Shown here one piece after another: positions 23,747-43,177 of a stretch of 64,000 nucleotides of DNA. The notes under the pieces were generated by a model. That model searched no databases and was not told the DNA's origin. It worked only from the letters and a program-made list of their open reading frames with translations. Position numbers and translations under genes: made by a program. The stretch covers positions 2,852,001 to 2,916,000 of the forward strand of contig NZ_CP142396.1 of NCBI RefSeq assembly GCF_035934735.1, given 5' to 3'. The DNA is from Sedimentibacter sp. MB31-C6 (GTDB taxonomy: Bacteria > Bacillota > Clostridia > Tissierellales > Sedimentibacteraceae). The stretch's first letter is position 1, and each line of letters starts with the position of its first letter.

Positions 23747-23769
23747 CATAAAATATGAGAGGTTTTATT

Positions 23770-25167
23770 ATGAAAAAGAAATTAGATATTCAAGTGAATC
23801 ATCTTGATTATCAAGGTATGTTAGAAGCTATTTTTCTAGCAACACAGGATGCAATAAGTGTTGTCAATGAAAAAGGAGAACATATCATGGTAAATCCGGC
23901 TTATACAAAAATAACAGGTATTAAGTACAATGATATTATTGGGAAGGATGCCCTATATGATATTGAACAAGGTTCTAGTCTGCATTTAAAAGTACTATCT
24001 ACAAAAAAACCAGTTGAAAATACGAAATTAAAAATAAAGCCTAGTGGAAAGACTGTTGTGGCACAAGCTGCTCCCATTATAGTTGATAATGTCATTAAAG
24101 GAAGCGTTGCTATACTACATGATATATCAGGAATAAAAAATTTGACTGACAAATTAGAAGAAGCAGAAAAAAAAATAAGAGAGTTAACTTACAAATATAA
24201 ACCTGAAGATATAATTGGTGAATCAGAAAATATTCAAGAAGTTAAAAGATTAGTAATGAAAGCTGCACAAGTACGTGCAACAGTTTTATTGAGAGGTGAA
24301 AGTGGTACTGGAAAGGAACTTTTTGCTAATTCAATTCATGCACAAAGTGACAGAAAAAATAATAGTTTTATAAGGGTGAATTGCGCAGCTATTACTGAAA
24401 CTCTATTAGAAAGTGAGTTGTTTGGCTATGAAGAAGGTGCTTTTACCGGAGCCAAAAAAGGTGGTAAAAAGGGTTTGTTTGAAGAAGCTGATAAAGGTAC
24501 AATATTTTTAGATGAAATATCTGAAATAAGTATGAACACTCAAGTAAAATTGTTAAGAGTATTGCAAGAAAAAGAAATAATGAAAGTTGGTGGCACTAAG
24601 CCAATATCAATAGATGTAAGAATAATTGCAGCTACAAACTCAGATTTAAGACAAGCGGTTAAAGATGGTAAATTTAGAGAGGATTTGTTTTATAGATTAA
24701 ATATACTTCCTATATATATACCACCATTAAGAGAACGCAAAAAAGATATTTCTTTATTAATAAAAAGATTTATAGTTAAAATAAATGATGAATATGGAAG
24801 AAATATTGTAAATATTGATGATGAAGCAACTAATATATTATTACATTATAATTGGCCAGGGAACGTAAGAGAACTGGAAAATGTAATAGGAAGGTCTATA
24901 ATTAATATGAACTTTAATGAACAGATAATTATGGCAGAACATTTACCACATCTATATCCATCTAATAAGAAAATTAAGCAAGGTTTAGTCATAAATAATA
25001 TAGATTATATACAAAAATTGAGTAGTATAATGGAAGAAACAGAATCGGAATATATTAGAAGTGTATATTTAAAACTTGAGAAAAATAAAACTCATACTGC
25101 GAAAAAACTAGGAATATCTGTTAGAACCCTTTATTATAAAATGGAGAAGTATGGCATAGTAGATTAG
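23770..25167 (+). CDS. Sigma-54 dependent activator (PAS, AAA+, Fis HTH)
   Basis: A 465-residue enhancer-binding protein. An N-terminal PAS domain (about 15-130, MVNPAYTKITGIKYNDIIGKD) senses an unknown signal. The AAA+ domain has Walker A GESGTGKE at 176-183 and the sigma-54 contact loop GAFTGA at 223-228. The C-terminal Fis-type helix-turn-helix is THTAKKLGISVRTLYYKMEK (about 441-460). ATG 23770 follows GAGAGG by 7 bases; the ATG at 23755 overlaps that site. A three-copy inverted repeat array and a -24/-12 promoter lie just downstream, before ptb. It therefore most likely activates the ptb-buk-vor operon, in the manner of BkdR. No receiver domain is present. Confidence 0.95.
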   Translation: MKKKLDIQVNHLDYQGMLEAIFLATQDAISVVNEKGEHIMVNPAYTKITGIKYNDIIGKDALYDIEQGSSLHLKVLSTKKPVENTKLKIKPSGKTVVAQAAPIIVDNVIKGSVAILHDISGIKNLTDKLEEAEKKIRELTYKYKPEDIIGESENIQEVKRLVMKAAQVRATVLLRGESGTGKELFANSIHAQSDRKNNSFIRVNCAAITETLLESELFGYEEGAFTGAKKGGKKGLFEEADKGTIFLDEISEISMNTQVKLLRVLQEKEIMKVGGTKPISIDVRIIAATNSDLRQAVKDGKFREDLFYRLNILPIYIPPLRERKKDISLLIKRFIVKINDEYGRNIVNIDDEATNILLHYNWPGNVRELENVIGRSIINMNFNEQIIMAEHLPHLYPSNKKIKQGLVINNIDYIQKLSSIMEETESEYIRSVYLKLEKNKTHTAKKLGISVRTLYYKMEKYGIVD

Positions 25168-25170
25168 ATA

Positions 25171-25225
25171 TGCAAACTTTTGCACAAATATATATTTTGC
25201 AATAATTTGCATGCAAATTATTGCA
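25171..25225 (+). promoter_or_regulatory. Enhancer array: three TGCAA-N4-TTGCA sites
   Basis: Three 14-bp dyads of the form TGCAA-N4-TTGCA occur at 25171-25184, 25198-25211 and 25212-25225. The last two abut, so 25197-25226 is one perfect 30-bp palindrome. They begin 4 bases after the activator stop and lie about 160-215 bp before the sigma-54 promoter, a normal enhancer distance. A further TGCA-rich half element follows (25223-25234). Binding by the upstream activator is inferred. Confidence 0.75.
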
Positions 25226-25246
25226 AGCATGCATTTGTTACTTCTA

Positions 25247-25315
25247 TACGGGACGCATTGTATGCGCCCGTAGTTCATATACAATTCAAACATACAACGT
25301 TAGGATGACAAGAAA
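25247..25315. repeat. Second copy of the structured intergenic repeat
   Basis: ACGGGACGCAT pairs with ATGCGCCCGT (one mismatched pair of positions) at the left end. The tail ACAACGTTAGGATGACAAGAA matches the tail of the copy at 6447-6520. It lies between the enhancer array and the sigma-54 promoter without breaking either. Confidence 0.5.
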
Positions 25316-25384
25316 TTGTTTATCAATAGTCTGAAATATTGATATAGCAATACTTGTTTTTTTATTATTATTTTTTAGAATTTA

Positions 25385-25402
25385 TTGGCATAAAAATTGC
25401 TT
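25385..25402 (+). promoter_or_regulatory. Sigma-54 (-24/-12) promoter of the ptb-buk-vor operon
   Basis: TTGGCATAAAAATTGCTT has the invariant GG (25387-25388) and GC (25399-25400) separated by exactly 10 bases, close to the TGGCAC-N5-TTGC consensus. The GTG start of ptb lies 25 bases further on. Confidence 0.88.
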
Positions 25403-25424
25403 AAATCTATTGTGAGGTGAGAAT

Positions 25425-26324
25425 GTGAAAAATTTTAATGATATTTTAGAACTTGCTAGAGTAAAAGGTCCAAAAAAAGTATCTGTAGCTGTAGCTCATG
25501 ATGAAGGTGTACTTAATGCAATTAAAAAAGCTGTAAATGAAAATATTTGTATTCCTTATCTTATTGGTGACGAAGAAAGAATCAGAGAAATATCTAAAAA
25601 AATAAATTTTAATTTAAACAATATTGACGTAATTGATGAAAAGGATGTTGTGAATGCATGCAGGAAAGCGGTATCAATGGTTAATGATGGTATATCTGAT
25701 ATAGTAATGAAAGGGTTAGTGGATACCTCGATTATTTTAAAAGCAGTACTTGATAAAAAAATCGGTTTAAGAACAGGAAATATACTAAGTCATGCTGCTG
25801 TTTTCTCAATAGAAAAATATCACAAAGTATTAATAATAACTGATGCTGCTATGAGTATTGCTCCTAGTGTAAATGAAAAAAAACAAATTTTAGAAAATGC
25901 AATTGGGTTAGCTCAATCTCTTGATATTACAACTCCAAAGGCTGCTGTTATATGTGCAAAAGAAAAAGTTAGTTTAAATATGCAGGCGACATTGGATGCT
26001 CAGGAATTGGTTGAAATGCATAAAGCTGGGATTATTAAACAGTGTTTTCTTGAGGGACCTTATGCACTTGATAATGCAATTTCTAAAGCTGCAGCAGAGC
26101 ATAAAGGTGTTAAGGGAGATGTTGCTGGCGATGCAGATATATTATTAATGCCTAATATAGAAGCAGGAAATGTTTTGTATAAATCATTAACTTATTTTTC
26201 TGACTCAGACAACGCTGGAGTAATTTTAGGAGCGAAAGCACCAATAGTACTTACTTCAAGAGCTGATACAGATGTTGCAAAATTAAATTCAATTGCTTTA
26301 GCAGTTTTACGAGCATCAAATTAA
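25425..26324 (+). CDS. ptb: Phosphate butyryltransferase (Ptb)
   Basis: A 299-residue enzyme of the phosphate acetyl/butyryltransferase family that converts (branched) acyl-CoA and phosphate to acyl phosphate and CoA. Family features are [57 protein letters not shown] and [19 protein letters not shown]. The start is GTG, placed 3 bases after GAGGTGAG. It is the first gene of the sigma-54 operon, 14 bases before buk. With a 2-oxoacid oxidoreductase downstream, likely substrates are isobutyryl-, isovaleryl- or 2-methylbutyryl-CoA. Confidence 0.95.
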
Positions 26325-26338
26325 AAAGGAGAAAAATT

Positions 26339-27406
26339 ATGTATCAATTAGTAATAAACCCAGGTTCAACTTCAACTAAAATAGCTGTATTTGATGATGA
26401 AAAATCGATTTATGAAAAAACTTTGAGACATTCAAATGAGGAACTTATTGAATTTTCTAATGTATCAGAACAATTCGAATTTAGAAAAAAATTGATTTTA
26501 GAAAATTTGCAGGAAAGTAATTTTGATATTAATTCATTAAGTGCAGTTGTAGGTAGAGGGGGGCTCTTGCTTCCTATTGAAGGTGGAACATACTTAGTCA
26601 ATGACAAACTAATAAAAGATTTGAAATCAAACATAAAAGGTGAACATGCATCAAATCTTGGAGGTTTGATAGCACGTTCAATATCAGATGAAACAGGAAT
26701 ACCAGCTTATATAGTTGATCCAGTAGTTGTAGATGAGATGGAAGAAGTAGCAAGAATAAGTGGTTATCCTGAATTTGAGAGAATTAGTATATGGCATGCA
26801 TTAAATCAAAAGGCTGTAGCTAGAAGAGCTGCAAAAGAAAAATTTAACAAAAAATATGAAGATATGAATTTTGTTGTAGCGCATTTAGGAGGAGGAATAT
26901 CAGTTGGAGCACATAAAAAAGGAAGAGTTATTGATGTAAATAATGCATTGAATGGCGAGGGTCCTTTTTCTCCAGAAAGATCAGGATCTCTTCCTATGGA
27001 ACAAGTTGTAAAAGTTTGCTTTAGCGGAAAATATACGGAAGAAGAAATTAAAAAAATCATCGCTGGAAAAGGTGGATTAAGTGCTTATTTAGGTACTAAT
27101 AATGCAAAAGAAGTAAGTGAAAGGGCGAAAAGTGGTGATGATAAGGCGGAACTAATTTATAAAGCAATGGCTTATCAGGTAGCAAAAGCAATAGGAGAAT
27201 ATTCAGTTGTTTTGGATGGAAATGTTGATGCTATTTTAGTAACAGGTGGAATTGCCTATGACAAAACATTTGTTGAGATGATAGAAGAAAAAGTTAAATT
27301 TATTGCAGATGTAATAACCTATCCTGGGGAAGATGAGTTGTTAGCATTAGCTCAAGGTGGTCTTAGAGTACTTAACAATATAGAACAAGCTAAAGAATAT
27401 GCATAA
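26339..27406 (+). CDS. buk: Butyrate (branched-chain fatty acid) kinase
   Basis: A 355-residue ASKHA-fold kinase making ATP from acyl phosphate. The phosphate-1 motif is [13 protein letters not shown] (6-18). [48 protein letters not shown] and [12 protein letters not shown] are the usual family blocks. The length is normal for Buk. AAAGGAG precedes the ATG. Together with Ptb it forms the ATP-yielding step of the operon. Preference for butyrate or a branched acid cannot be told from sequence. Confidence 0.95.
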
Positions 27407-27442
27407 GAAACTGTAGTAACTTTTATGAAAGGGGGTTAATCA

Positions 27443-28117
27443 GTGATTGATAAAAGGTTAGTAATTGTCACGGGACATTATGGTAGTGGAAAAACAGAGT
27501 TTTCAGTTAATTATGCTATAAAAATGAAAGAGAAATGTGAAAAAGTAAGTATTGCAGACTTAGATATTGTGAATCCATATTTTCGAACTAGAGAAAAAAG
27601 GAAATTTTTAGAGGAATTAGGAATCGATGTTTCGGATAGTAGTATTAGAAATACCACTCTCGATTTACCTGCTCTTCCTGCTGAAATTATGGGTATTATT
27701 CAAAACCAAAATGTTAAGGCTGTATTAGACGTAGGTGGTGATCCAGTAGGAGCAAGAGTACTTGCTAGATTTTCTACTTTAATTCTTAATACTGAGTTCG
27801 ACTTGTTTTATGTAATAAATGCGTATAGGCCTGAAACTAATTCTAAAGAAAAAGTTATAAAGTATTTAAGAGATATAGAAAAAACATCAGGATTAAAAGT
27901 AACAGGACTCATAAATAATACACATCTATTAAAAGAAACTAAAGTACATGATGTAGAATTTGGACATGAACTTACAAAAGAAGTGTCATGGGAGACAGAT
28001 ATACCAATTAGATATGAAGTTGCAATACAAAATGTGGTACAAGATATTGTTAACCCAGAAATTAAAGATAAATTGTTCCCCATAAATCTTTATATGAGGG
28101 AAGAATGGATGAGTTAA
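27443..28117 (+). CDS. P-loop ATP/GTP-binding protein of the vor operon
   Basis: A 224-residue P-loop NTPase with Walker A GHYGSGKTEFS at about residues 11-21. A SIMIBI/MinD-like layout is visible: ADLDIVNPYFRTREKR, AVLDVGGDPVGARVLARF and the possible specificity element LINNTHL. Related proteins occur next to ferredoxin-linked 2-oxoacid oxidoreductases in Clostridia. The start GTG 27443 follows GGGGGTTAAT. A role in assembling or activating the iron-sulfur/thiamine enzyme complex is plausible from the fold and position, but it is not established. Confidence 0.8.
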   Translation: MIDKRLVIVTGHYGSGKTEFSVNYAIKMKEKCEKVSIADLDIVNPYFRTREKRKFLEELGIDVSDSSIRNTTLDLPALPAEIMGIIQNQNVKAVLDVGGDPVGARVLARFSTLILNTEFDLFYVINAYRPETNSKEKVIKYLRDIEKTSGLKVTGLINNTHLLKETKVHDVEFGHELTKEVSWETDIPIRYEVAIQNVVQDIVNPEIKDKLFPINLYMREEWMS

Positions 28118-28134
28118 AAAATGGAGGTATAAAT

Positions 28135-28350
28135 ATGGCAAAAGGTAAAGTAACGTTTAATGATGATGCATGCAAGGGATGTGAACTATGCGTTTCTGTA
28201 TGTCCTAAAAAAATTATTAGCTTAAGTAAAGACAAAATTAATAAAAAGGGCTACAGTCCAGCATATGTAACCAATCAAGAAGAATGCATAGCATGTGGTA
28301 ATTGTGCAATTATGTGTCCTGATTCAGCAATAACAGTAGAGAGATTATAA
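28135..28350 (+). CDS. Ferredoxin-like delta subunit of a 2-oxoacid:ferredoxin oxidoreductase
   Basis: A 71-residue protein with two 4Fe-4S motifs: CKGCELCVSVCP (cysteines 13, 16, 19, 23) and CIACGNCAIMCP. It relays electrons from the thiamine site to ferredoxin. The start is ATG 28135 after GGAGG; an ATG at 28105 in the same frame overlaps the end of the previous gene and lacks support. The next subunit begins 16 bases later. Confidence 0.93.
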   Translation: MAKGKVTFNDDACKGCELCVSVCPKKIISLSKDKINKKGYSPAYVTNQEECIACGNCAIMCPDSAITVERL

Positions 28351-28365
28351 AATTGGAGGTAAGTT

Positions 28366-29427
28366 ATGTCAAAAGTATTGATGAAAGGTAACGAAGCAGT
28401 TGGAGCAGCAGCTATAAAAGCAGGATGTAAATATTTTTTCGGTTATCCTATTACTCCACAAAGTGAATTGCCAGAATATATGTCAAAAGCATTACCAGAG
28501 GCGGGGGGAGTTTTTTTACAGGCAGAAAGTGAAGTTGCAGCAATTAATATGGTATATGGCGCTGCAGGTGCTGGGGCAAGGGTTATGACAGGTTCATCTA
28601 GTCCTGGAATATCATTAAAACAAGAAGGTATAACATATTGTGCAGGAGCAGAACTTCCTTGTGTTATTGTTAATATGATGAGAGGTGGTCCAGGTCTTGG
28701 TAGTATCCAACCTGGTCAAGCAGATTATTTCCAAAGTACTAGAGGTGGTGGAAACGGAGATTATAGAACATTAGTATATGCACCAGCAAGTATTCAGGAA
28801 ACAGTTGACTATGTAATGTTAGCATTTGACAAAGCAGATCAATATAGAAATCCAGTTTTGATACTTGCGGATGGAATGATTGGTCAAATGATGGAAGCAG
28901 TAGAATTTAAAGAAGCAAAAAAGATTGATTTACCAAAGAAAGATTGGGCAAGTACCGGTACAAAAGGAAAAAGATCACGTAACATTATAAATTCATTATA
29001 TTTAGAAGCTGAAGATTTAGAAGCACATAATGTTAGATTAGAAAAAAAATATAAGACTATTGAGGAAAATGAAGTTTTATACGAAGCTTTCGGATTAGAA
29101 GATGCAGAGGTAGTATGCGTTGCCTATGGAACAACATCAAGAATAGTTAAAACAGCTATAAAACAGGCAGAAGCAAAAGGAATAAAAGTTGGAATGATTC
29201 GTCCAATAACATTATGGCCATTTCCTTATGAAGCATTTAAAAATATAAATTTAAATGCAAAGGGAATGCTTGCAGTTGAAATGAGTTCAGGTCAGTTAAC
29301 GGACGATGTTAAAATAGGGATAGAAGGTAGATTACCAGTATATTTTAATGGTAGAACTGGCGGAATGATTCCAACACCAGAAAGTATAGTTGCAGATATA
29401 GAGAAAATTGCAGGAGGTACTAAATAA
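28366..29427 (+). CDS. vorB: 2-oxoacid:ferredoxin oxidoreductase alpha subunit (VorB-like)
   Basis: A 353-residue alpha subunit. The pyrimidine-binding region has GCKYFFGYPITPQSELPEYM, QAESEVAAINMVYGAAGAGARVMTGSSSPG and MMRGGPGLGSIQPGQADYFQSTRGGGNGDYR. A transketolase C-terminal-like domain follows (VCVAYGTTSRIVKTAIKQAEAKGIKVGMIRPITLWPFP). In databases this form is usually named VorB (3-methyl-2-oxobutanoate). The Ptb/Buk neighbours agree with branched-chain 2-oxoacid use, although KorA-type 2-oxoglutarate or broad specificity cannot be excluded. The last base of the stop is the first base of the next ATG. Confidence 0.92.
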   Translation: MSKVLMKGNEAVGAAAIKAGCKYFFGYPITPQSELPEYMSKALPEAGGVFLQAESEVAAINMVYGAAGAGARVMTGSSSPGISLKQEGITYCAGAELPCVIVNMMRGGPGLGSIQPGQADYFQSTRGGGNGDYRTLVYAPASIQETVDYVMLAFDKADQYRNPVLILADGMIGQMMEAVEFKEAKKIDLPKKDWASTGTKGKRSRNIINSLYLEAEDLEAHNVRLEKKYKTIEENEVLYEAFGLEDAEVVCVAYGTTSRIVKTAIKQAEAKGIKVGMIRPITLWPFPYEAFKNINLNAKGMLAVEMSSGQLTDDVKIGIEGRLPVYFNGRTGGMIPTPESIVADIEKIAGGTK

Positions 29428-30173
29428 TGACTATAGTATATGAAAAATCAAAAGGTTTAACTGATATACCTTTTCATTATTGCCCGGGGTGTACTCATGG
29501 AGTAATTCATAAATTAGTTGCTGAAGTATTAGTAGAATTAGGAGTATTGGATGATGCTATAGGTGTTGCACCTGTAGGATGTTCAGTGTTGGCATATAAT
29601 TATTTTAATTGTGATATGCAAGAAGCATCACATGGTAGGGCGCCAGCTGTAGCAACTGGAATAAAAAGAGTTTTACCAGATAATGTTGTATTTTCATATC
29701 AAGGTGATGGAGACCTTGCTTCTATCGGAACAGCAGAAATAGTTCATGCTGCACATAGAGGCGAAAAGATAACTACTATTTTTGTTAATAATGCAATTTA
29801 TGGTATGACTGGAGGACAAATGGCTCCAACTACATTGGTAGGTCAAAAAGCAACAACTGCTCCTTTTGGAAGAGATGAAGCGCATTGTGGAAAACCTATA
29901 AAAATATCTGAAATGCTTGCTACTATTGATGGAGCTAAATTCGTAGAGAGAGTTGCAGTTAATACTCCTGCTAATATAAGAAAGGCTAAAAAAGCAATAA
30001 AGAGAGCATTTGAATGTCAGATTCAAGGAAAGGGATTTGCAATAGTTGAAGTATTGTCAACTTGCCCAACAAACTGGGGATTAACACCGGTTAAAGCTTT
30101 AGATTGGCTACAAGACAATATGATACCATATTATCCTTTACAAAATTTCAGAAATTTTGAGGAGGTAAAATAA
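29427..30173 (+). CDS. 2-oxoacid:ferredoxin oxidoreductase beta subunit (thiamine-binding)
   Basis: A 248-residue beta subunit with the TPP-binding motif GDGDLASIGTAEIVHAAHRG..NNAIYGMTGGQMAPTT and an early CPGC (19-22), a conserved cysteine motif of these subunits. It holds the thiamine diphosphate that attacks the 2-oxoacid. Its start overlaps the stop of the alpha gene by one base, and the gamma gene follows 1 base after its own stop, so expression is tightly coupled. Confidence 0.94.
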   Translation: MTIVYEKSKGLTDIPFHYCPGCTHGVIHKLVAEVLVELGVLDDAIGVAPVGCSVLAYNYFNCDMQEASHGRAPAVATGIKRVLPDNVVFSYQGDGDLASIGTAEIVHAAHRGEKITTIFVNNAIYGMTGGQMAPTTLVGQKATTAPFGRDEAHCGKPIKISEMLATIDGAKFVERVAVNTPANIRKAKKAIKRAFECQIQGKGFAIVEVLSTCPTNWGLTPVKALDWLQDNMIPYYPLQNFRNFEEVK

Positions 30174-30174
30174 C

Positions 30175-30717
30175 ATGGAAGAAAAAGTAATAATGGCTGG
30201 TTTTGGTGGTCAAGGTGTTATGGCTATAGGAAAGCTTCTTGCTTATGCAGGAATGCTGGAAAATAAACAAGTTACATGGTTACCATCTTATGGTCCAGAA
30301 ATGAGAGGTGGTACAGCAAACTGTGCTGTAGTAGTATCTGATGAAATGATTGGTTCACCAGTTATATCAAAAGATGGATCTGCTGCAATTATAATGAATT
30401 TACCATCTTTAACAAAATTTGAAGGTGAAATATTATCTGGTGGTAAACTAATAATAAATAAATCACTTATTGAAGATAAACCATCAAGAAATGATATAGA
30501 TGCTTATTATGTTCCTGCAAATGAAATAGCTGCAGAATTGGGTAATGGAAAAGTAGCTAATATGATAATGTTAGGGGCATATCTAGAACTCACTAAAGTA
30601 GTAGAAGTAGAATCAGTATTAAATGCATTTGTTAAAGTATTTGGAGAAAATAAATCTCATCTGGTTCCTTTGAATAAAGAAGCACTATTAAAGGGAGCAG
30701 AAGCAGTAAGAAAATAA
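30175..30717 (+). CDS. 2-oxoacid:ferredoxin oxidoreductase gamma subunit
   Basis: A 180-residue gamma subunit. The domain opens MAGFGGQGVMAIGKLLAYAG and continues TWLPSYGPEMRGGTANCAVVVSDEMIGSP, the hallmark of the POR/KOR gamma family that helps bind CoA. It closes the sigma-54 operon and is followed immediately by a terminator. Confidence 0.94.
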   Translation: MEEKVIMAGFGGQGVMAIGKLLAYAGMLENKQVTWLPSYGPEMRGGTANCAVVVSDEMIGSPVISKDGSAAIIMNLPSLTKFEGEILSGGKLIINKSLIEDKPSRNDIDAYYVPANEIAAELGNGKVANMIMLGAYLELTKVVEVESVLNAFVKVFGENKSHLVPLNKEALLKGAEAVRK

Positions 30718-30742
30718 AAAAACGCCTTCAGGGCGTTTTTTT
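30716..30742 (+). terminator. Terminator of the ptb-buk-vor operon
   Basis: AAAAAAACGCC and GGCGTTTTTTT pair around a short loop, starting at the gamma-subunit stop codon. Confidence 0.92.
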
Positions 30743-30813
30743 ATTTTTAAGACTTTAATCTATTATTTAATTATGATATATTATGTTTAAAGTATATATT
30801 AAGGAAAAAGATT

Positions 30814-35754: not shown

Positions 35755-37035
35755 TTGAAATTAGAATTAGGCTACATTTTAATTAAGGATATTCAGTTTT
35801 CTGAAGAATCCAAAGTTGAAAACGGAACACTGTTTGTTAACAAAGAAGAAGTTAAAGCATTAATTCTAGAAGACCAAAACTTTAAGTCTGCAGAGGTGGA
35901 GCTTGCAAAACCAGGTGACAGCATTCGTATAATGCCTGTTAAAGATGTTATCGAGCCAAGAGTTAAAGTTGAAGGACCTGGAGGGATTTTCCCTGGTATG
36001 GTTAACAAAGTAGAAACTGTAGGTTCTGGAAAAACAAATGTTTTAAAGGGTGCAGCAGTTGTTACAACAGGAAAAATTGTAGGTTTTCAAGAAGGTATTA
36101 TTGATATGACTGGTCCCGGATCAGAATATACACCATTTTCTAAGTTAAATAATTTAGTTTTAGCTTGTGAACCAGTTGATGGCTTAAAACAGCATGAGCA
36201 TGAAAAAGCCCTTAGATTTGCTGGCTATAAAGTAGCATTGTATCTAGGGGAATTAGCAAGAAATATTGTACCAGATGAATCTGAAACATTTGAGACACCT
36301 ACTATTACAGAAGGAATTAAATTATATCCAGAACTTCCTAGAGTAGGTTATGTTTTAATGTTACAAAGTCAAGGATTATTACATGATACTTATGTATATG
36401 GGGTTGATGCTAAACAATCATTAACTACAATGATATATCCTACTGAAATAATGGATGGTGCTATAGTAAGCGGTAACTGTGTATCAGCTTGTGATAAAAA
36501 TACTACATATCACCATTTAAATAATCCTGTTATTCATGACTTATTTGCAGAACATGGAAAAACATTGAACTTTGTAGGTGTTATTATTACAAATGAGAAT
36601 GTATATCTTGCAGATAAAGAAAGATCTTCTAACTGGAGTGCTAAATTTGCAGAACTATTAGGCTTAGATGGAGTAATTATTTCACAAGAAGGGTTTGGTA
36701 ATCCAGATACAGACTTAATTATGAATTGTAAGAAAATAGAAGCTAAAGGTGTTAAAACTGTTATTATAACAGATGAATATGCTGGTAGGGATGGTTCATC
36801 TCAATCATTAGCAGATGCAGATATAAGTGCTAATGCAGTTGTAACTGGTGGAAATGCAAATGAAGTAATTGAACTTCCAGCTTTAGACAAGATAATCGGA
36901 TATCCAGAAGTTGCTAATGTTATTGCTGGTGGTTTCGATGGAAGTTTACATGCTGATGGTAGTATTACAGCAGAACTTCAGGTTATAACAGGTGCGACTA
37001 ATGAAATGGGCTTCAATAAACTAAGTGCGAGATAA
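35755..37035 (+). CDS. grdE: Glycine reductase component B, GrdE proprotein
   Basis: A 426-residue substrate-specific component B precursor. The protein is known to be cleaved autocatalytically at an Asn-Cys bond to give two chains, the second with an N-terminal pyruvoyl group that forms a Schiff base with glycine. The matching SGNCVSACDKNTTYHHLNNPV is present with Cys at residue 242. The start is TTG, 6 bases after GGAGGTGA; no in-frame ATG lies near. grdB follows 17 bases later. The family and the processing site are clear. Confidence 0.96.
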   Translation: MKLELGYILIKDIQFSEESKVENGTLFVNKEEVKALILEDQNFKSAEVELAKPGDSIRIMPVKDVIEPRVKVEGPGGIFPGMVNKVETVGSGKTNVLKGAAVVTTGKIVGFQEGIIDMTGPGSEYTPFSKLNNLVLACEPVDGLKQHEHEKALRFAGYKVALYLGELARNIVPDESETFETPTITEGIKLYPELPRVGYVLMLQSQGLLHDTYVYGVDAKQSLTTMIYPTEIMDGAIVSGNCVSACDKNTTYHHLNNPVIHDLFAEHGKTLNFVGVIITNENVYLADKERSSNWSAKFAELLGLDGVIISQEGFGNPDTDLIMNCKKIEAKGVKTVIITDEYAGRDGSSQSLADADISANAVVTGGNANEVIELPALDKIIGYPEVANVIAGGFDGSLHADGSITAELQVITGATNEMGFNKLSAR

Positions 37036-37052
37036 GGAAGGGAGGAAAAATA

Positions 37053-38357
37053 ATGATAAAAGTTGTTCATTATATAAATCAATTCTTTGCTAATGTTGGT
37101 GGAGAAGAAATGGCTCACATTCCTGCTGAAGTAAGAGAAGGTATTGTAGGCCCTGGGTTAGCTTTTAAACAAGCTTTTAAGGATGAAGCAGAAATTGTTG
37201 CAACAATAGTTTGTGGTGATTCATATTTTAATGAAAATCTTGAAGAAGCAAAGAGTGCTATATTAGAAATGGTAAGAAAATATAATCCTGATTTATTTAT
37301 TGCAGGACCAGCATTCAATGCAGGTAGATATGGTGTTGCTTGTGGCACTATAGCCAAAGCAGTTAATGATGAATTAGGTATACCAGTAATTACAGGTATG
37401 TATATAGAAAATCCTGGTGTAGATATGTTTAAAAACAGTTTATACATAGTTTCTACAAAAAATTCAGCTGCTGGTATGAGAGATGCTGTTAAAAAAATGG
37501 CTCCATTAGCATTAAAATTAGCCAAAAAAGAAAAAATAGGATCTTCATTTGAAGAAAGTTATATTCCAAATGGAATAAGAAAAAATTTCTTTGAAAAAGA
37601 AAGAGGTTCAAAAAGAGCAGTAAAAATGCTTATTAATAAATTAAATGGAAAAGATTTTGTTACAGAATATCCAATGCCTGATTTTGATAGAGTAGAAGCA
37701 AATCCTGCTGTTAAGGATATATCAAAAGCTAAAATAGCATTAGTTACTTCTGGTGGTATAGTACCAAAGGGAAATCCAGATCATATTGAATCATCTAGTG
37801 CATCTAAGTATGGTAAGTACGATATTGATGGAGTGCAAGATTTAACAGAAGAAACATTTGAAACTGCACATGGTGGATATGACCCTGTTTATGCTAATTT
37901 AGATGCTGACAGAGTATTACCAGTAGATATATTAAGAGAATTTGAAAAAGAAGGTAAAATAGGTAGTTTATATAGATATTATTATACAACAGTTGGTAAT
38001 GGTACTGCAGTTAAAAGTGCTAAAGGCTTTGCTGAAGAAATTGGTAAAGAATTGAAGGCTGATAAAGTAGATGCAGTTATACTTACTTCAACCTGAGGTA
38101 CCTGTACACGTTGCGGCGCAACGATGGTAAAAGAAATTGAAAGAGCGGGAATTCCTGTTGTTCATATGTGTACTGTAGTTCCTATTTCGCTAACAGTTGG
38201 TGCGAACCGGATAGTTCCAACAATTGCAATTCCACATCCATTAGGGAATCCTTCTTTGACAATTGAAGAAGAAAGAGATATAAGAAGGAATTTAGTTGGA
38301 AGAGCATTAAGAGCTTTAGAAACTGAAATAACAGAACAAACAGTTTTTGAGAGTTAG
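37053..38357 (+). CDS. grdB: Glycine reductase component B selenoprotein GrdB (TGA = selenocysteine)
   Basis: The frame runs from ATG 37053 to TAG at 38357 through one TGA at 38094-38096, which encodes selenocysteine 348 in LTST-U-GTCTRCGATM. The total is 434 residues, the usual GrdB length. GrdB uses the selenol to attack the bound glycine and pass a carboxymethyl group to GrdA. Sequence before the TGA (FANVGGEEMAHIPAEVREG) and after it (GIPVVHMCTVVPISLTVGANRIVPTIAIPHPLGNP) both match GrdB, so this is recoding, not a frameshift or nonsense mutation. A hairpin at 38109-38123 is in place for SECIS. Confidence 0.97.
38097..38130 (+). other. Candidate SECIS element of grdB
   Basis: Starting 12 bases after the TGA, CGTTGC (38109-38114) and GCAACG (38118-38123) form a six-pair stem with the tight loop GGC, with G bases in the loop. 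Distance and position fit a bacterial SECIS; the loop is smaller than in the E. coli fdhF element. Confidence 0.5.
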
Positions 38358-38360
38358 TTA

Positions 38361-38408
38361 AAGGATCTCATTGAGATCCTTCGAGCTTTGCTCTCAGAAT
38401 GACAGACT
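38361..38408. repeat. Small hairpin repeat between grdB and trxB
   Basis: AAGGATCTCA pairs with TGAGATCCTT around one base (38361-38381). CGAGCTTTGCTCTCAGAATGACAG follows, a tail like that of dispersed repeats in many Firmicutes and similar to the GGATGACNAGAA tails at 6447 and 25247. It may also slow or end part of the transcription. Confidence 0.5.
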
Positions 38409-38467
38409 ATATTATAGTTAGTATAGTAAGATTTGACCCATGACATTACAGAGAAAAGAGGTGTGAA

Positions 38468-39400
38468 ATGAGCAAAGTATATGATGTTATAATAATTGGA
38501 GCTGGACCTGCAGGATTATCAGCAGGTATTTATGCAGGAAGAGCAAGATTAAGTACATTAATTATTGAAAAGGAAAAGGATGGAGGACAAATAGTTCTCA
38601 CATCTGAAGTAGAAAACTATCCAGGTTGCTTAGAAGGTGAATCAGGCCCTACTTTGGTTGATAGAATGGCTGAACAGGCAAAGCATTTTGGTGCAGAGAA
38701 GGTTTATGATGAAATAATAGAAGTTAATCTTGAAGGCAAAGAAAAGGTGCTTAAAGGCAAAAAAGGTGAGTATTTAGGAAAAACAGTTATAGTTGCTACT
38801 GGAGCAACTTCAAGACCGATAGGTTGTCCAGGAGAAAAAACTTTTACTGGAAAGGGAGTTTCTTATTGTGCAACTTGTGATGGAGCCTTTTTTGAGGATT
38901 TTGAAGTATATGTAGTAGGCGGTGGCGATACAGCAGTTGAGGAAGCATTATACTTAACCAAATTTGCGAGAAAAGTATCTATAATTCACAGAAGAAATGA
39001 ATTGAGAGCAGCAAAATCTATTCAAGATAAAGCAAAAGCAAATCCAAAAATTGATTTTATCTGGGATTCAGTTGTTAAAGAAATTAAAGGCGACGGAATT
39101 GTTGATACAATGATTATTGAGAATGTAAAAACTGGTGAATTAACTGAGGTTAAAGCAGATGAAGATGATGGTACATTTGGTATTTTTGTATTTATAGGAT
39201 ATGTTCCGAAAACAAAAATATTTGAGGATATGCTTGAACTTCAAAAAGGTTACATTGTTACTGATGAAAATATGAATACCAATATTGAAGGTGTGTATGC
39301 AGCTGGAGATATAAGAGTAAAAAGTTTAAGACAGGTTGTTACTGCAGCAGCTGACGGAGCAATAGCAGCTGTTCAAGCAGAAAAATACTTGGAGCAATAG
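38468..39400 (+). CDS. trxB: Thioredoxin reductase
   Basis: A 310-residue flavoenzyme with FAD-binding IIGAGPAGLSAGIYAGRA (residues about 10-27), the redox-active CATC at 134-137 and the pyridine-nucleotide site VVGGGDTAVEEALYL. It reduces the neighbouring TrxA, which in turn reduces GrdA and hence drives glycine reduction. It lies inside the grd cluster between grdB and grdA, as in other glycine-fermenting Clostridia. GAGGTGTGAA precedes the ATG. Confidence 0.96.
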   Translation: MSKVYDVIIIGAGPAGLSAGIYAGRARLSTLIIEKEKDGGQIVLTSEVENYPGCLEGESGPTLVDRMAEQAKHFGAEKVYDEIIEVNLEGKEKVLKGKKGEYLGKTVIVATGATSRPIGCPGEKTFTGKGVSYCATCDGAFFEDFEVYVVGGGDTAVEEALYLTKFARKVSIIHRRNELRAAKSIQDKAKANPKIDFIWDSVVKEIKGDGIVDTMIIENVKTGELTEVKADEDDGTFGIFVFIGYVPKTKIFEDMLELQKGYIVTDENMNTNIEGVYAAGDIRVKSLRQVVTAAADGAIAAVQAEKYLEQ

Positions 39401-39413
39401 TAGGAGGTAAATT

Positions 39414-39731
39414 ATGTTAGAGTTAGATAAAAAAACCTTTGAGCCTGAGGTATTACAAGGAGAAGGTTATATATTAGTAGATTTTTATGGTGATGGTTGT
39501 GCTCCTTGTCAATCTTTAATGCCACATGTAATAGAGTTTTCTGAAAAATATGGTGATAAAATTAAATTTATGAAATTAAATACTACTAAGGCTAGAAGAG
39601 TTGCTATAGGACAAAAAGTATTAGGTTTGCCTGTTATTGCAATCTATAAAGACGGAGAAAAAGTAGAAGAATTAGTAAAAGAAGATGCTACTCCAGAAAA
39701 TATAGAAGCAATGATAAATAAATATATTTAA
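39414..39731 (+). CDS. trxA: Thioredoxin of the glycine reductase system (GCAPC active site)
   Basis: A 105-residue thioredoxin whose active site is G-C29-A-P-C32 instead of the standard WCGPC. Loss of the Trp and Gly is a feature of Grd-linked thioredoxins in amino-acid-fermenting Clostridia and probably tunes potential and partner choice. The remaining fold is standard (ILVDFYGDG, then [16 protein letters not shown] with the cis-Pro). It starts 14 bases after trxB with AGGAGG. Confidence 0.95.
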
Positions 39732-39767
39732 ACAGACAATTAACAAAAAATAATAGGAGGTTTAACT

Positions 39768-40241
39768 ATGAGCTTATTAAAAGATAAGAAAGTAATTATA
39801 ATAGGCGACAGAGATGGGATTCCAGGACCAGCCATTGAAGAATGTGTAAAAAGTGCTGGAGCAGAAGTAGTTTTTTCATCTACTGAATGTTTTGTCTGAA
39901 CTGCCGCAGGAGCAATGGATTTGGAAAATCAGAAAAGGGTTAAAGAGTTAACAGAAAAGTACGGTGCTGAAAACATAGTAGTTGTACTTGGTGCAGCTGA
40001 AGGTGAAGCTTCAGGCTTAGCAGCTGAAACTGTTACAAATGGTGACCCTACTTATGCAGGTCCATTGACAGGAGTTCAGTTAGGACTCAGTGTATTTCAC
40101 GTTTGTGAACCAGAAGTAAAAGAAGAAGTTGACGAATCTATTTATGATGAACAAATCAGCATGATGGAAATGGTATTAGATGTTGATGACATAGTAGATG
40201 AAATGAAACCAATTAGAGAAGATTATTGTAAATATTTATAA
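39768..40241 (+). CDS. grdA: Glycine reductase component A selenoprotein GrdA (TGA = selenocysteine)
   Basis: A full frame runs from ATG 39768 to 40241 (157 residues) with a TGA at 39897-39899 encoding selenocysteine 44 in the CFVU motif. The start [20 protein letters not shown] and the downstream [24 protein letters not shown] are typical of GrdA. It accepts the carboxymethyl group on its selenol and transfers it to component C as ketene plus a selenide-sulfide, later reduced by thioredoxin. TAGGAGG precedes the ATG. A SECIS is expected right after the TGA, but I see only a weak stem there. Confidence 0.97.
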
Positions 40242-40270
40242 TATGAATAATAAATTTTTAGAATATTTTT

Positions 40271-40428
40271 ACGAGATATAAGGATATCCCCTTCCCAGAT
40301 GCGATATCCTTAAACTCGTAAGCAGTGTGATGTAATAATTGCTTCGCAGCTACTGCGAAGCAAATTTTCAAACTTAATTTAAAGTATAAAGTTTAAAGTT
40401 TAAATAAACTGATTAAACTTTATACTTT
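40271..40428 (+). repeat. Three consecutive hairpins between grdA and grdC
   Basis: The first stem, ACGAG..TAAGGATATC pairing with GATATCCTTA..CTCGT, spans about 40271-40319. The second, TTGCTTCGCAG/CTGCGAAGCAA at 40339-40363, has 11 perfect pairs and a CTA loop and is followed by AATTTT. The third, at 40381-40396/40413-40428, has 16 perfect pairs. The second looks like a weak terminator. This spacer may lower transcription of grdC-grdD or protect the grdA message. Confidence 0.6.
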
Positions 40429-40464
40429 GTATTTTAAATAGTTAATAGCACTAAGGAGGTAATT

Positions 40465-41997
40465 ATGAACAGTGTAATAAAAGGAGCTAGTTATATTTTA
40501 GCCTTTGTACCTGATATGGTTTTACATAATGGTACAACACAAACTACTGAAAGAACTGTTAACCCAAATTCAGAGTATTTAAAAGAAATTAAAAATCACA
40601 TAAGAAATTATGAGCAAGTAGTAAAATATCCACCAAATCAAGCTTATATAGGTAATATTACACCTGATGATTTAGCAAATTATGAATTGCCATGGTATGA
40701 CAAATCAATAGAAAATGCTGATAGGTTTGGAAAGTATGGGGAGATAATGCCCCAAGATGAATTTATCTGTTTAATGCAAATGTGTGATGTATTTGATCTT
40801 GTGAAACTTGAAAAAGAATTTGTTCAACTTACTAGAGAAAAACTATCAAAGCATCCATTAATAGATGAAAATTTATTAGGAAGATTAAAAGATGGTGATG
40901 ATGCTGAAATAATTGAAAAATTAGTTTCTGAAGAGCATTCAGAACCTATATATAATAATAGTAAATTAATTGGATGTGTAAAAAGAGCACATGATATTGA
41001 TGTTAACCTAAGTGCTCATGTTATGTTAGAAAATTTGGTTTCTAAGGCTTCAAATGTTCTATCTATTTTGAATTTAATAGCTAAACATAATATTAATAGA
41101 GAAGAAATTGATTATGTTATTGATTGTTGTGAAGAAGCTTGTGGTGACATGAATCAAAGAGGTGGAGGTAATTTTGCAAAAGCATGTGCAGAGGTTGCAG
41201 GGCTAACAAATGCTACTGGTTCTGATGTAAGAGGTTTTTGTGCAGGTCCAGCTCATGCACTAATTGAAGCTGCTGCCCTTGTAAAAGCTGGAGCATATAA
41301 GAATGTAATTGTTTCAGCAGGAGGCTCTACTGCAAAACTAGGTATGAATGGTAAAGATCATATTAAAAAGGGACTTCCAATACTTGAAGATGTTCTAGGT
41401 GGTTTTTCTATTTTAATAAGCGAAAATGATGGTATCAATCCAGAAATAAGGTTAGATTTTATAGGAAAACATTGTGTAGGTACTGGTTCTTCTCCTCAAG
41501 CAGTTATTACTTCTTTAGTATCATCTTTAGATAAGGCTGGAATGAAAATTACTGATGTAGATAAATATTCAGTTGAAATGCAAAATCCTGACATTACAAA
41601 ACCTGCTGGAGCAGGAGATGTTCCTTTAGCAAACTATAAAATGATTGGAGCTTTGGCAGTAAAAAGAGGTGACATAGAGAAAAAGGAATTAATTGATTTT
41701 ACTAAAAAGCATGGGATGATAGGCTGGGCACCAACTCAGGGACATATCCCATCAGGAGTACCATATATAGGATTTGGAAGACAAGATATACTAGATGGTA
41801 AAATTAAGAATGCTATGATAGTTGGAAAAGGTAGTTTGTTCCTAGGCAGAATGACAAATTTATTTGACGGTGTTTCCTTTATTATTGAAGCAAACAAAGG
41901 AAAAGAAGAAGAACAAACTTCTGTTTCTGAAGATAAAATAAAAGAATTAATTGCACAAGCATTAAAAAATTTCGCTTCAAATCTACTAACTGAATAG
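40465..41997 (+). CDS. grdC: Glycine/sarcosine/betaine reductase component C, beta subunit GrdC
   Basis: A 510-residue GrdC, related to FabH-type condensing enzymes. Family blocks are VPDMVLHNGTTQTTERTVNPNSEYLKE, DYVIDCCEEACGDMNQRGGGNFAKACAEVAG and RGFCAGPAHALIEAAALVKAG. Component C takes the carboxymethyl-selenyl group from GrdA and, with GrdD, releases acetyl phosphate. AGGAGG precedes the ATG. grdD follows after 10 bases. Confidence 0.96.
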   Translation: MNSVIKGASYILAFVPDMVLHNGTTQTTERTVNPNSEYLKEIKNHIRNYEQVVKYPPNQAYIGNITPDDLANYELPWYDKSIENADRFGKYGEIMPQDEFICLMQMCDVFDLVKLEKEFVQLTREKLSKHPLIDENLLGRLKDGDDAEIIEKLVSEEHSEPIYNNSKLIGCVKRAHDIDVNLSAHVMLENLVSKASNVLSILNLIAKHNINREEIDYVIDCCEEACGDMNQRGGGNFAKACAEVAGLTNATGSDVRGFCAGPAHALIEAAALVKAGAYKNVIVSAGGSTAKLGMNGKDHIKKGLPILEDVLGGFSILISENDGINPEIRLDFIGKHCVGTGSSPQAVITSLVSSLDKAGMKITDVDKYSVEMQNPDITKPAGAGDVPLANYKMIGALAVKRGDIEKKELIDFTKKHGMIGWAPTQGHIPSGVPYIGFGRQDILDGKIKNAMIVGKGSLFLGRMTNLFDGVSFIIEANKGKEEEQTSVSEDKIKELIAQALKNFASNLLTE

Positions 41998-42007
41998 GAG
42001 TGAAGAA

Positions 42008-43177
42008 ATGTCTGAAAAACAAGTAAATCAAATAATAGGTAAAGTATTTAATCAATTGGCAGACACATTAATAAGTGGCGAATATGGACAAAAGCCACGT
42101 ATTGGAATAACAGCTATAGGAAGCGAACACGGTGAAGATAATATTATTGAAGCAGCATTAAATGCAAGTAAAAGTTCTATTGAAACGATTGTTATAGGAA
42201 CAAAGGATATAGATGGCATTGAATCATCTATAGTAAAATCTGAAGCCGAAGCACATAAAAGAATGGATTTGTTACTAGAATCTAAAAAAATAGATGCTGC
42301 AGTTACTATGCATTATCCATTTCCAATTGGGGTTTCAACAGTAGGTAAAGTAATTACCCCTGGAAAGGGAAAAGAAATGTTTATTGCTACAACTACAGGA
42401 ACTTCCTCAACGGATAAAGTTGAAGGAATGGTAAAAAATGCAATTTATGGTATTATAACTGCTAAGGCTTGTGGTATTAAAAATCCAACTGTAGGCATTT
42501 TAAATGTAGATGGGGCTAGACAAACAGAAATTGCTTTGAAAAAGCTTCAAAGTCAAGGTTACGATATTAATTTTGCGTCATCTCAAAGATCTGATGGAGG
42601 ATCTGTTATGCGCGGGAATGACTTACTTATGGGTTCGGCAGATGTTATGGTTATGGATTCATTGACAGGTAATCTTATGATTAAAATTTTCTCTTCATAT
42701 ACTACTGGTGGTAATTATGAATCCTTAGGCTATGGTTATGGACCAGGTATAGGAGAAAACTTTAAAAAATTAATTTTAATAATTTCCAGAGCGTCAGGAG
42801 CTCCTTTAATTGAAGGTGCAATAAAATTTGCAGCGAAACTTGTTAAAGGAAATTGTATTGAAATAGCTAAAAACGAATTTAATAAAGCTAATAATGCAGG
42901 TTTGAAAGATATATTAAGTGGATTAAAGTCTAGTAAAAAGTCAGAAGTTGAAGAAATAAAAGCACCTAGTAAAGAAGTTGTTACCTTTCAAATTTCTGGA
43001 ATTGAAATAATGGATCTTGAAGATGCAGTAAAATTACTTTGGAAAGAAGGCATTTATGCTGAAAGTGGAATGGGTTGTACAGGACCTATAATTTTAGTTA
43101 ATGAAGAAAAAACAAATGAAGCTATAAAAATTCTTTCAAAAGCAGAATACATTGCTAAAGAACAGACTGATTGTTAA
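42008..43177 (+). CDS. grdD: Glycine/sarcosine/betaine reductase component C, alpha subunit GrdD
   Basis: A 389-residue GrdD, related to PlsX/phosphate acyltransferase folds. It has YPFPIGVSTVGKVITPGKGKEMFIATTTGTSSTDKVEGM and SQRSDGGSVMRGNDLLMGSADVMVMDSLTGN, and a C-terminal GMGCTGPIILVNEE with Cys357, the likely acetyl-thioester residue by comparison with studied GrdD. It phosphorolyses the acetyl thioester to acetyl phosphate. A terminator follows at 43214, closing the locus. Confidence 0.95.
   Translation: MSEKQVNQIIGKVFNQLADTLISGEYGQKPRIGITAIGSEHGEDNIIEAALNASKSSIETIVIGTKDIDGIESSIVKSEAEAHKRMDLLLESKKIDAAVTMHYPFPIGVSTVGKVITPGKGKEMFIATTTGTSSTDKVEGMVKNAIYGIITAKACGIKNPTVGILNVDGARQTEIALKKLQSQGYDINFASSQRSDGGSVMRGNDLLMGSADVMVMDSLTGNLMIKIFSSYTTGGNYESLGYGYGPGIGENFKKLILIISRASGAPLIEGAIKFAAKLVKGNCIEIAKNEFNKANNAGLKDILSGLKSSKKSEVEEIKAPSKEVVTFQISGIEIMDLEDAVKLLWKEGIYAESGMGCTGPIILVNEEKTNEAIKILSKAEYIAKEQTDC

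Follow-up and report, generated by a model that had tools for sequence, protein, structure and literature searches.

A BkdR-type sigma-54 circuit predicted to control a ptb-buk-2-oxoacid:ferredoxin oxidoreductase operon in Sedimentibacter sp. MB31-C6

The stretch of DNA studied here, referred to as the window, comprises 64,000 nucleotides of the 3,023,553-base (~3.02 Mb) genome of Sedimentibacter sp. MB31-C6 (assembly GCF_035934735.1, contig NZ_CP142396.1, positions 2,852,001 to 2,916,000), and locus positions are given in window coordinates. It holds a gene for a sigma-54 activator, followed by three palindromic TGCAA-N4-TTGCA sites (dyads), a predicted -24/-12 promoter and an operon encoding phosphate butyryltransferase (Ptb), butyrate kinase (Buk), a P-loop NTPase and the four subunits of a 2-oxoacid:ferredoxin oxidoreductase (VOR) (Table 1). 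The best explanation, at a probability of about 0.86, is that the locus represents an anaerobic counterpart of the BkdR regulon of Bacillus, with the same type of regulator, operator and Ptb-Buk exit, in which the dehydrogenase complex has been exchanged for a ferredoxin enzyme with a companion P-loop NTPase. The comparisons concern homology, operator and promoter conservation, operon content and co-occurrence, and from them we infer DNA binding, activation, the transcript start, the inducer and the substrate. An earlier, sequence-only reading had proposed a sigma-54 circuit with its own activator, dyads and promoter over ptb-buk-vor, and comparative genomics strongly supports such a circuit. 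The more telling point is the likeness of the circuit to a bkd regulon with its engine exchanged.

In the proposed mechanism, the PAS domain of the activator would sense a small metabolite from branched-chain amino acid breakdown, the activator would bind the three dyads, and its ATP hydrolysis would open RNA polymerase-sigma-54 at the promoter ~170-210 bp downstream of the dyads. VOR would convert 2-oxoisovalerate and its relatives, CoA and oxidised ferredoxin into branched acyl-CoA, CO2 and reduced ferredoxin, Ptb would turn the acyl-CoA into an acyl phosphate, and Buk would use the acyl phosphate and ADP to form a branched fatty acid and ATP. The operon as a whole would thereby form the oxidative side of a Stickland fermentation, the one that yields ATP. 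The GAFTGA loop makes the contact with sigma-54 in this class of proteins, and the reaction scheme of VOR, Ptb and Buk is established biochemistry of these families.

The activator and its place in the BkdR family

The predicted composition of the activator, with a PAS domain, a GAFTGA-bearing AAA+ domain and a Fis-type helix-turn-helix (HTH), was confirmed by its open reading frame (ORF), by Pfam and by an exact GAFTGA in the translation. The same architecture, with GAFTGA or GAFSGA in the AAA+ domain, characterizes the BkdR family, and the gene lies, as in that family, directly upstream of a ptb-buk operon with a -24/-12 promoter. The top genome matches to the activator were three Tissierellia relatives (69-73% identity), followed by loci at 49-64%, mostly from Bacillus and its kin; the B. 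velezensis protein of locus L091, which adjoins the bkd operon, is 54% identical. As a homologue set we used the best 80 of at least 587 confirmed matches, with neighbouring genes annotated by tblastn and the loci then sorted by their enzyme genes into 54 with branched-chain dehydrogenase genes (BKD), 14 with VOR (15 with the window), one with both (L033) and 11 others. Two of the others (L074 and L040) end at contig edges, and two VOR loci (L028 and L029) were called as such solely from a P-loop gene at the contig end.

Identity to the 54 BKD-type proteins has a median of 48% (43-54) in the PAS domain, with 62% in AAA+ and 46% in the HTH, as against a PAS median of 19% (6-32), 48% and 30% for 20 paralogues from the same genome. 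A quick tree with long branches set the activator family apart from 19 own-genome paralogues (SH-aLRT 99). Judged by these comparisons, the window activator is a BkdR homologue across PAS, AAA+ and HTH, also because the neighbours of its best homologues make up 54 BKD and 14 VOR loci. Identity with PrdR was rejected: PrdR is the top NCBIfam match, yet at 433.5 bits against a cut-off of 795.

The window protein is 470 aa long and contains one PAS domain, whereas L091, the only BKD protein included in the Pfam scan, has 689 aa and two; the BkdR-like N-terminal extra region and second PAS were absent from the window activator in that scan. The N-terminal stretch of L091 resembles Rossmann-type models, below cut-off only. 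Most BKD proteins (47/54) measure 670-730 aa and VOR-type proteins 459-592 aa, but length does not define the family because five of the 54 BKD proteins are also shorter than 600 aa. As the PAS domain is conserved with BKD-type proteins, a conserved signal is suggested. The lone PAS without a receiver had been singled out as a distinguishing feature; the single PAS was found, but receiver-less PAS enhancer-binding proteins (EBPs) are the rule: of the 431 EBPs that have a regulatory domain at the N-terminus, 387 are one-component, and 357 of these contain PAS (Nie et al. 2019, PMC6615313).

Putative operator dyads and promoter

All three dyads predicted 3' of the activator gene are exact, and the promoter has the expected spacing, its GG-N10-GC, starting at 25387, being the only one in 25161-25430. 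Only four exact TGCAA-N4-TTGCA dyads occur in the genome, three of them within 55 bp at this locus, against none in a backward-read control. The fourth (position 1501 of L107) was ruled out as a second regulatory target by its position inside an ORF (657-1805) that, on visual inspection, resembles a diguanylate cyclase. The promoter sequence, TTGGCATAAAAATTGCT, fits the clostridial consensus TTGGCATNNNNNTTGCT of Nie et al. (PMC6615313). The pattern TGGCAYNNNNNTTGCW had 24 matches in the genome and one in the backward control, and 17 of these 24 matches are found no more than 2.5 kb from one of 21 strong sigma-54 activator matches. The circuit had been called self-contained, which is fair for activator and operator because the only other exact dyad of the genome is not intergenic, but the 20 other strong activator matches would share sigma-54. 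Around 20 own-genome EBP genes (3.5 kb each), no exact dyad was found, and two loci had a lone 1-mismatch site.

The order-wide survey comprised 199 genomes, of which 46 encode the activator (E <= 1e-115) and 115 encode VorB (E <= 1e-100). In 39 of the 46, VorB lies 2,270-4,708 bp downstream of the activator on the same strand, and the remaining seven comprise five genomes without a VorB match and two with VorB on another contig. A search for the motif in related genomes had been suggested as a check. When 44 of the 46 regions downstream of the activator were scanned, every one contained a dyad with at most one mismatch and a -24/-12 promoter; the dyad was exact in 38, and at least two dyads within one mismatch were present in 42. 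No exact dyad arose in 2,200 dinucleotide shuffles, where at least one near-match (1 mismatch) occurred in 6% and two in 0.14%. As a control, the 5.5 kb upstream of vorB were taken from 20 of the 74 VorB genomes without the activator (110 kb in total). These contained no exact dyad (0/20) and five scattered 1-mismatch sites, and kept ptb and buk in 19 of 20 cases, with cdaA in the same 5.5-kb stretch in 15. Even within one genus code, genome G035 has the activator and three exact dyads, while G051 and G063 have neither, yet keep ptb, buk and vor. In the genomes compared, activator and dyads come and go together. A chance origin of the dyads was ruled out by the genome count, the shuffles and the control loci.

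Three closely spaced palindromes could also serve another regulator, e.g. a repressor, with the activator acting elsewhere, and a sigma-70-like match (25385-25413, 9 of 12) does overlap the -24/-12 site. This arrangement is very unlikely, given that the presence or absence of the dyads follows that of the activator gene, the 44 regions all combining a near or exact dyad with the promoter and none of the 20 activator-free loci having an exact dyad, or a near-dyad and promoter side by side. Sigma-70-like matches, moreover, occur at shuffle level (39 vs 38.4), and the remaining exact dyad of the genome is intragenic.

Sharing of the site extends to the homologous loci, where a dyad (at most one mismatch) and a -24/-12 promoter stand between activator and operon in 51 of 54 BKD loci, 13 of 15 VOR loci and L033 with its two enzyme sets. 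With 2-mismatch sites counted, 11 of the 15 VOR loci have an abutting pair (14 bp) preceded at 22 or 27-29 bp by a third dyad, and many BKD loci have spacings of 14 and 19 bp. Defined by this comparison, the TGCAA-N4-TTGCA dyad is the predicted operator common to the window locus and the Bacillus-type bkd loci; the available text of PMC4428206 and PMC4524646 names no such site for BkdR. Two of the 11 other loci have this pair of elements. Among the remaining nine, L060 carries ptb-bcd-buk-vor on the opposite strand, preceded there by a -24/-12 promoter and two 1-mismatch dyads, in L040 buk starts 1.5 kb away, and in some, e.g. L082 and L089, the downstream genes are not ptb, buk or vor.

An ordinary orphan EBP beside a fermentation operon, with no evolutionary tie to bkd and with an operator likeness caused by convergence of A+T-rich palindromes, would be in keeping with the control of a single operon by most Clostridiales EBPs (170/263; PMC6615313). 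It is nevertheless hardly credible in view of the domain-by-domain homology with BkdR, the lack of any exact dyad in the 2,200 shuffles of the relatives' regions, and the ptb and buk genes common to both locus types, with L033 holding both enzymes.

The operon, its substrate and its surroundings

The genes proposed for the operon (ptb, buk, a P-loop gene and four oxidoreductase subunits) were all recovered by ORF, NCBIfam and Pfam analysis. Ptb passes PRK05805 (410.3 against a cut-off of 399), Buk passes TIGR02707, and VorB passes PRK07119 (NF005507; 559.3 against 399). All four VOR subunits (alpha, beta, gamma and delta) are present, VorA, VorC and VorD being matched by domain only. The target genes lpdV-bkdAA-bkdAB-bkdB do not occur in the window operon, which has VOR genes instead, in agreement with the claim of a ferredoxin-linked enzyme rather than a dehydrogenase complex. 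The contrast drawn earlier with Bacillus BkdR holds for this target enzyme and fails for the circuit, which itself belongs to the BkdR family, with a homologous activator and the same TGCAA-N4-TTGCA site.

The same circuit might serve another 2-oxoacid, through a broad or a 2-oxobutyrate/aromatic oxidoreductase acting in the breakdown of threonine, methionine or aromatic amino acids. In favour of this, a family model named for a substrate is passed by VorB alone, the BkdR-family activator of L082 precedes indolepyruvate oxidoreductase (IOR) genes, and ZypR of Clostridiales drives tyrB-iorAB-butK (PMC6615313 Table 1). We consider such a substrate unlikely, as both PAS domain and operator match the ones of Bacillus BkdR, a regulator whose operon carries an annotation for the breakdown of isoleucine and valine (PMC4428206), and as VorB exceeds the PRK07119 cut-off but reaches only 68 of 651 bits with the IOR model. 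Branched-chain 2-oxoacids are the preferred assignment.

The P-loop gene is present in 13 of 15 VOR loci, or in 11 of 13 once L028 and L029, whose sorting depended on that gene, are set aside. All 20 activator-free VOR stretches have it, and both Thermincola loci lack it. Among 55 loci with bkd genes it occurs in one, L033, which also has VOR; that none of the 54 BKD loci has it is true by construction, because a locus with bkd and P-loop genes would have been called 'both'. The protein has an invariant Walker-type region, and its single cysteine (residue 32 in the window copy) is not conserved. The window and L027 copies fall under the Pfam cut-offs, and the L030 copy is slightly over that of CbiA (27.9 vs 25.4). 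A role in VOR assembly or activation is our guess from the company the gene keeps.

Several observations weigh against the interpretation of the locus as a BkdR regulon for branched-chain substrates. The activator's signal could differ from that of BkdR, since the protein has one PAS domain and no N-terminal extra region. In only 39 of the 115 VorB genomes does the activator lie just upstream; some contigs occur both among the order regions and among the 80 loci, and the counts run over related, non-independent genomes. Four of the 20 control loci contain a -24/-12-like match, in no case close to a near-dyad. Among the 11 other loci, dyad and promoter occur in two only, and there are exceptions elsewhere: L030 has dyads but a -12 element without GC, L056, L051 and L106 have dyads at two mismatches only, and L058 has no dyad. 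On the enzyme side, Ptb misses the equivalog TIGR02706 (375.5 vs 410.5), neither VorA nor VorC reaches any of the listed NCBIfam cut-offs, and VorD reaches none of the 25 shown of 85. Because of these missed cut-offs, the substrate is assigned by association.

Table 1. Features of the activator-ptb-buk-vor locus and rpoN in window coordinates
Feature	Position	Strand	Basis or remark
BkdR-family sigma-54 activator	23755-25167	+	ORF; probable start ATG 23770 by inspection; Pfam PAS, Sigma54_activat, AAA_lid, HTH_8; trees
PAS domain (residues 22-125), probable sensor	23818-24129	+	Pfam
Exact GAFTGA loop of activator	24436-24453	+	Seen in translation
Sigma54_activat domain of activator	residues 153-320		Pfam
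Fis-type HTH (HTH_8, residues 426-466)	25030-25152	+	Pfam
Putative operator dyad 1, TGCAAACTTTTGCA	25171-25184		Exact TGCAA-N4-TTGCA; kept in relatives
Putative operator dyad 2, TGCAATAATTTGCA	25198-25211		Exact; 27 bp centre to centre from dyad 1
Putative operator dyad 3, TGCAAATTATTGCA	25212-25225		Exact; abuts dyad 2 (14 bp); abutting pairs recur in relatives
Copy of dispersed palindromic repeat	25249-25270		Between dyads and promoter
Predicted -24/-12 promoter, TTGGCATAAAAATTGCT	25385-25401	+	Transcript start predicted near 25412
ptb, phosphate butyryltransferase type, GTG start	25425-26324	+	NF004472 above cut-off; ribosome site GAGGTG 25414-25419 by inspection
buk, butyrate kinase type	26339-27406	+	TIGR02707 above cut-off
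P-loop NTPase gene, companion of VOR	27443-28117	+	Under Pfam cut-offs
vorD, ferredoxin-like subunit, two 4Fe-4S motifs	28135-28350	+	Probable start 28135 by inspection
vorB, alpha subunit of 2-oxoacid:ferredoxin oxidoreductase	28366-29427	+	NF005507 PRK07119 above cut-off
vorA, beta subunit, thiamine diphosphate binding	29427-30173	+	PF02775
vorC, gamma subunit	30175-30717	+	PF01558
Predicted intrinsic terminator	30713-30745	+	Folding
rpoN (sigma-54)	43472-44878	+	TIGR02395 above cut-off; ~13 kb beyond operon

The terminator said to close the operon folds as a 15-pair stem, including its A/T flanks (z -6.75), and is not among the output of a generic terminator scan. The hairpin upstream of the promoter was ruled out as a special regulatory element, being a member of a dispersed repeat with the core GGGACGCATTGTATGCGTCCC (21 exact places listed; 136 strand matches at up to two mismatches, palindromic places counted twice); in three near relatives, the aligned spacers contain nothing that corresponds to it. 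The rpoN gene lies in the same window, as had been noted, and is directly preceded by a sarcosine/glycine reductase cluster (35755-43177) encoding GrdG, GrdF, thioredoxin reductase and the beta and alpha subunits of component C. GrdF matches only model positions 4-349 of 435, a short frame that may, we presume, reflect an in-frame TGA read as selenocysteine. The reductase cluster and rpoN following the operon would fit a Stickland organism.

Related systems and a proposed exchange of enzymes

The Bacillus bkd locus (bkdR-ptb-bcd-buk-lpdV-bkdAA-bkdAB-bkdB) resembles the window locus in having a PAS-AAA+-HTH activator directly upstream, TGCAA-N4-TTGCA sites, a -24/-12 promoter, ptb and buk. It differs in that VOR and the P-loop NTPase here take the place of lpdV-bkdAA-AB-B, bcd is lacking, the activator is shorter (470 aa and one PAS, against mostly 670-730 aa, with two PAS in L091), and the dyads are spaced by 27 and 14 bp rather than mostly 14 and 19. 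In B. thuringiensis, the promoter before ptb is sigma-54 controlled and markedly weaker in a bkdR mutant (PMC4428206). The ZypR regulon of Clostridiales similarly places a ferredoxin-linked 2-oxoacid oxidoreductase and a butyrate kinase (tyrB-iorAB-butK) under a sigma-54 activator (PMC6615313 Table 1), and these genes are down in a sigL mutant (PMC7438776 Table 4). ZypR, however, belongs to another activator group, and its regulon has an aromatic 2-oxoacid enzyme and neither ptb nor vor. Its upstream activating sequence (UAS) is TGT/ACA with a 10-12 bp spacer (PMC6615313), and neither this TGT-N10-12-ACA element nor tyrB-iorAB-butK is matched by the sites and genes of the window.

More generally, the window locus agrees with the Clostridiales sigma-54 regulons (39 EBP groups; Nie et al. 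2019, PMC6615313) in placing a one-component PAS EBP next to an operon for fermentation or Stickland reactions, frequently with more than one UAS, but a ptb-buk-vor target is not among the 39 rows of Table 1 of that study. The ptb-buk-P-loop-vor operons of activator-free relatives have the same genes and lack the activator gene and any exact dyad (20/20 tested). In C. difficile, VorA1-B1-C1 and Ptb1 have been described as the branch that oxidises branched-chain amino acids (PMC8225356), and Table 4 of Soutourina et al. (PMC7438776) lists no -24/-12 promoter for such an operon. No description of BkdR-type control of VOR was found in the literature searched, which covered few subscription papers and, in available text, included PMC9130780, PMC12316311 and PMC3162934.

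The locus would tie the Bacillus regulon to anaerobic amino acid fermentation, one sensor and operator code serving two unrelated enzyme machineries whose carbon chemistry is the same and whose electron carriers differ. It provides a candidate, testable operator for the control of branched-chain fatty acid production in the little-studied Tissierellia and in Clostridia, and the BkdR ligand may be approachable by comparing two branches with one conserved PAS domain. The tested neighbours that lack the activator, and with it its sites, offer a natural experiment.

A possible intermediate is L033 (10001-21367, Bacillales), where activator-ptb-bcd-buk-P-loop-vorDBAC-lpd-bkdAA-bkdAB follow in a row to the edge of the stretch examined, apparently two enzyme systems in one operon. 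In a careful tree of 46 family members, using 19 of the 54 BKD rows and with a root that is not known, all 19 BKD rows and L033 fall on one side (92/88, not starred) and VOR rows occupy several lineages on the other. A single clade of VOR-type activators was not supported, as VOR needs five changes, at least four of them by starred branches. This topology is compatible with a single change from VOR to the dehydrogenase complex, or with several events in the opposite direction. We tentatively propose, at somewhat less than even odds, that an anaerobic circuit, in which sigma-54 and BkdR controlled a ferredoxin-linked VOR operon, was the ancestor of the bkd regulon in aerobic Bacilli. A single replacement of the central enzyme would then have left the regulator, the operator and the Ptb-Buk exit in place, with loci such as L033 marking the exchange, and the P-loop NTPase, as a factor dedicated to assembling or activating VOR, would have been lost together with it.

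The targets of the BkdR family vary, because the activator of L082 (2964-8502, Thermodesulfovibrio) is followed by indolepyruvate oxidoreductase genes (above cut-off) and a phenylacetate-CoA ligase-like gene (just below its cut-off), possibly a third kind of target; the 500 bases scanned after this activator contain no dyad of the TGCAA-N4-TTGCA type. In L076 (1286-5727) and L089 (9995-14409), from Pelotomaculum and its kin, a BkdR-family activator precedes a small gene and then an acetate-CoA ligase, assigned above cut-off in L076 and by resemblance in L089.

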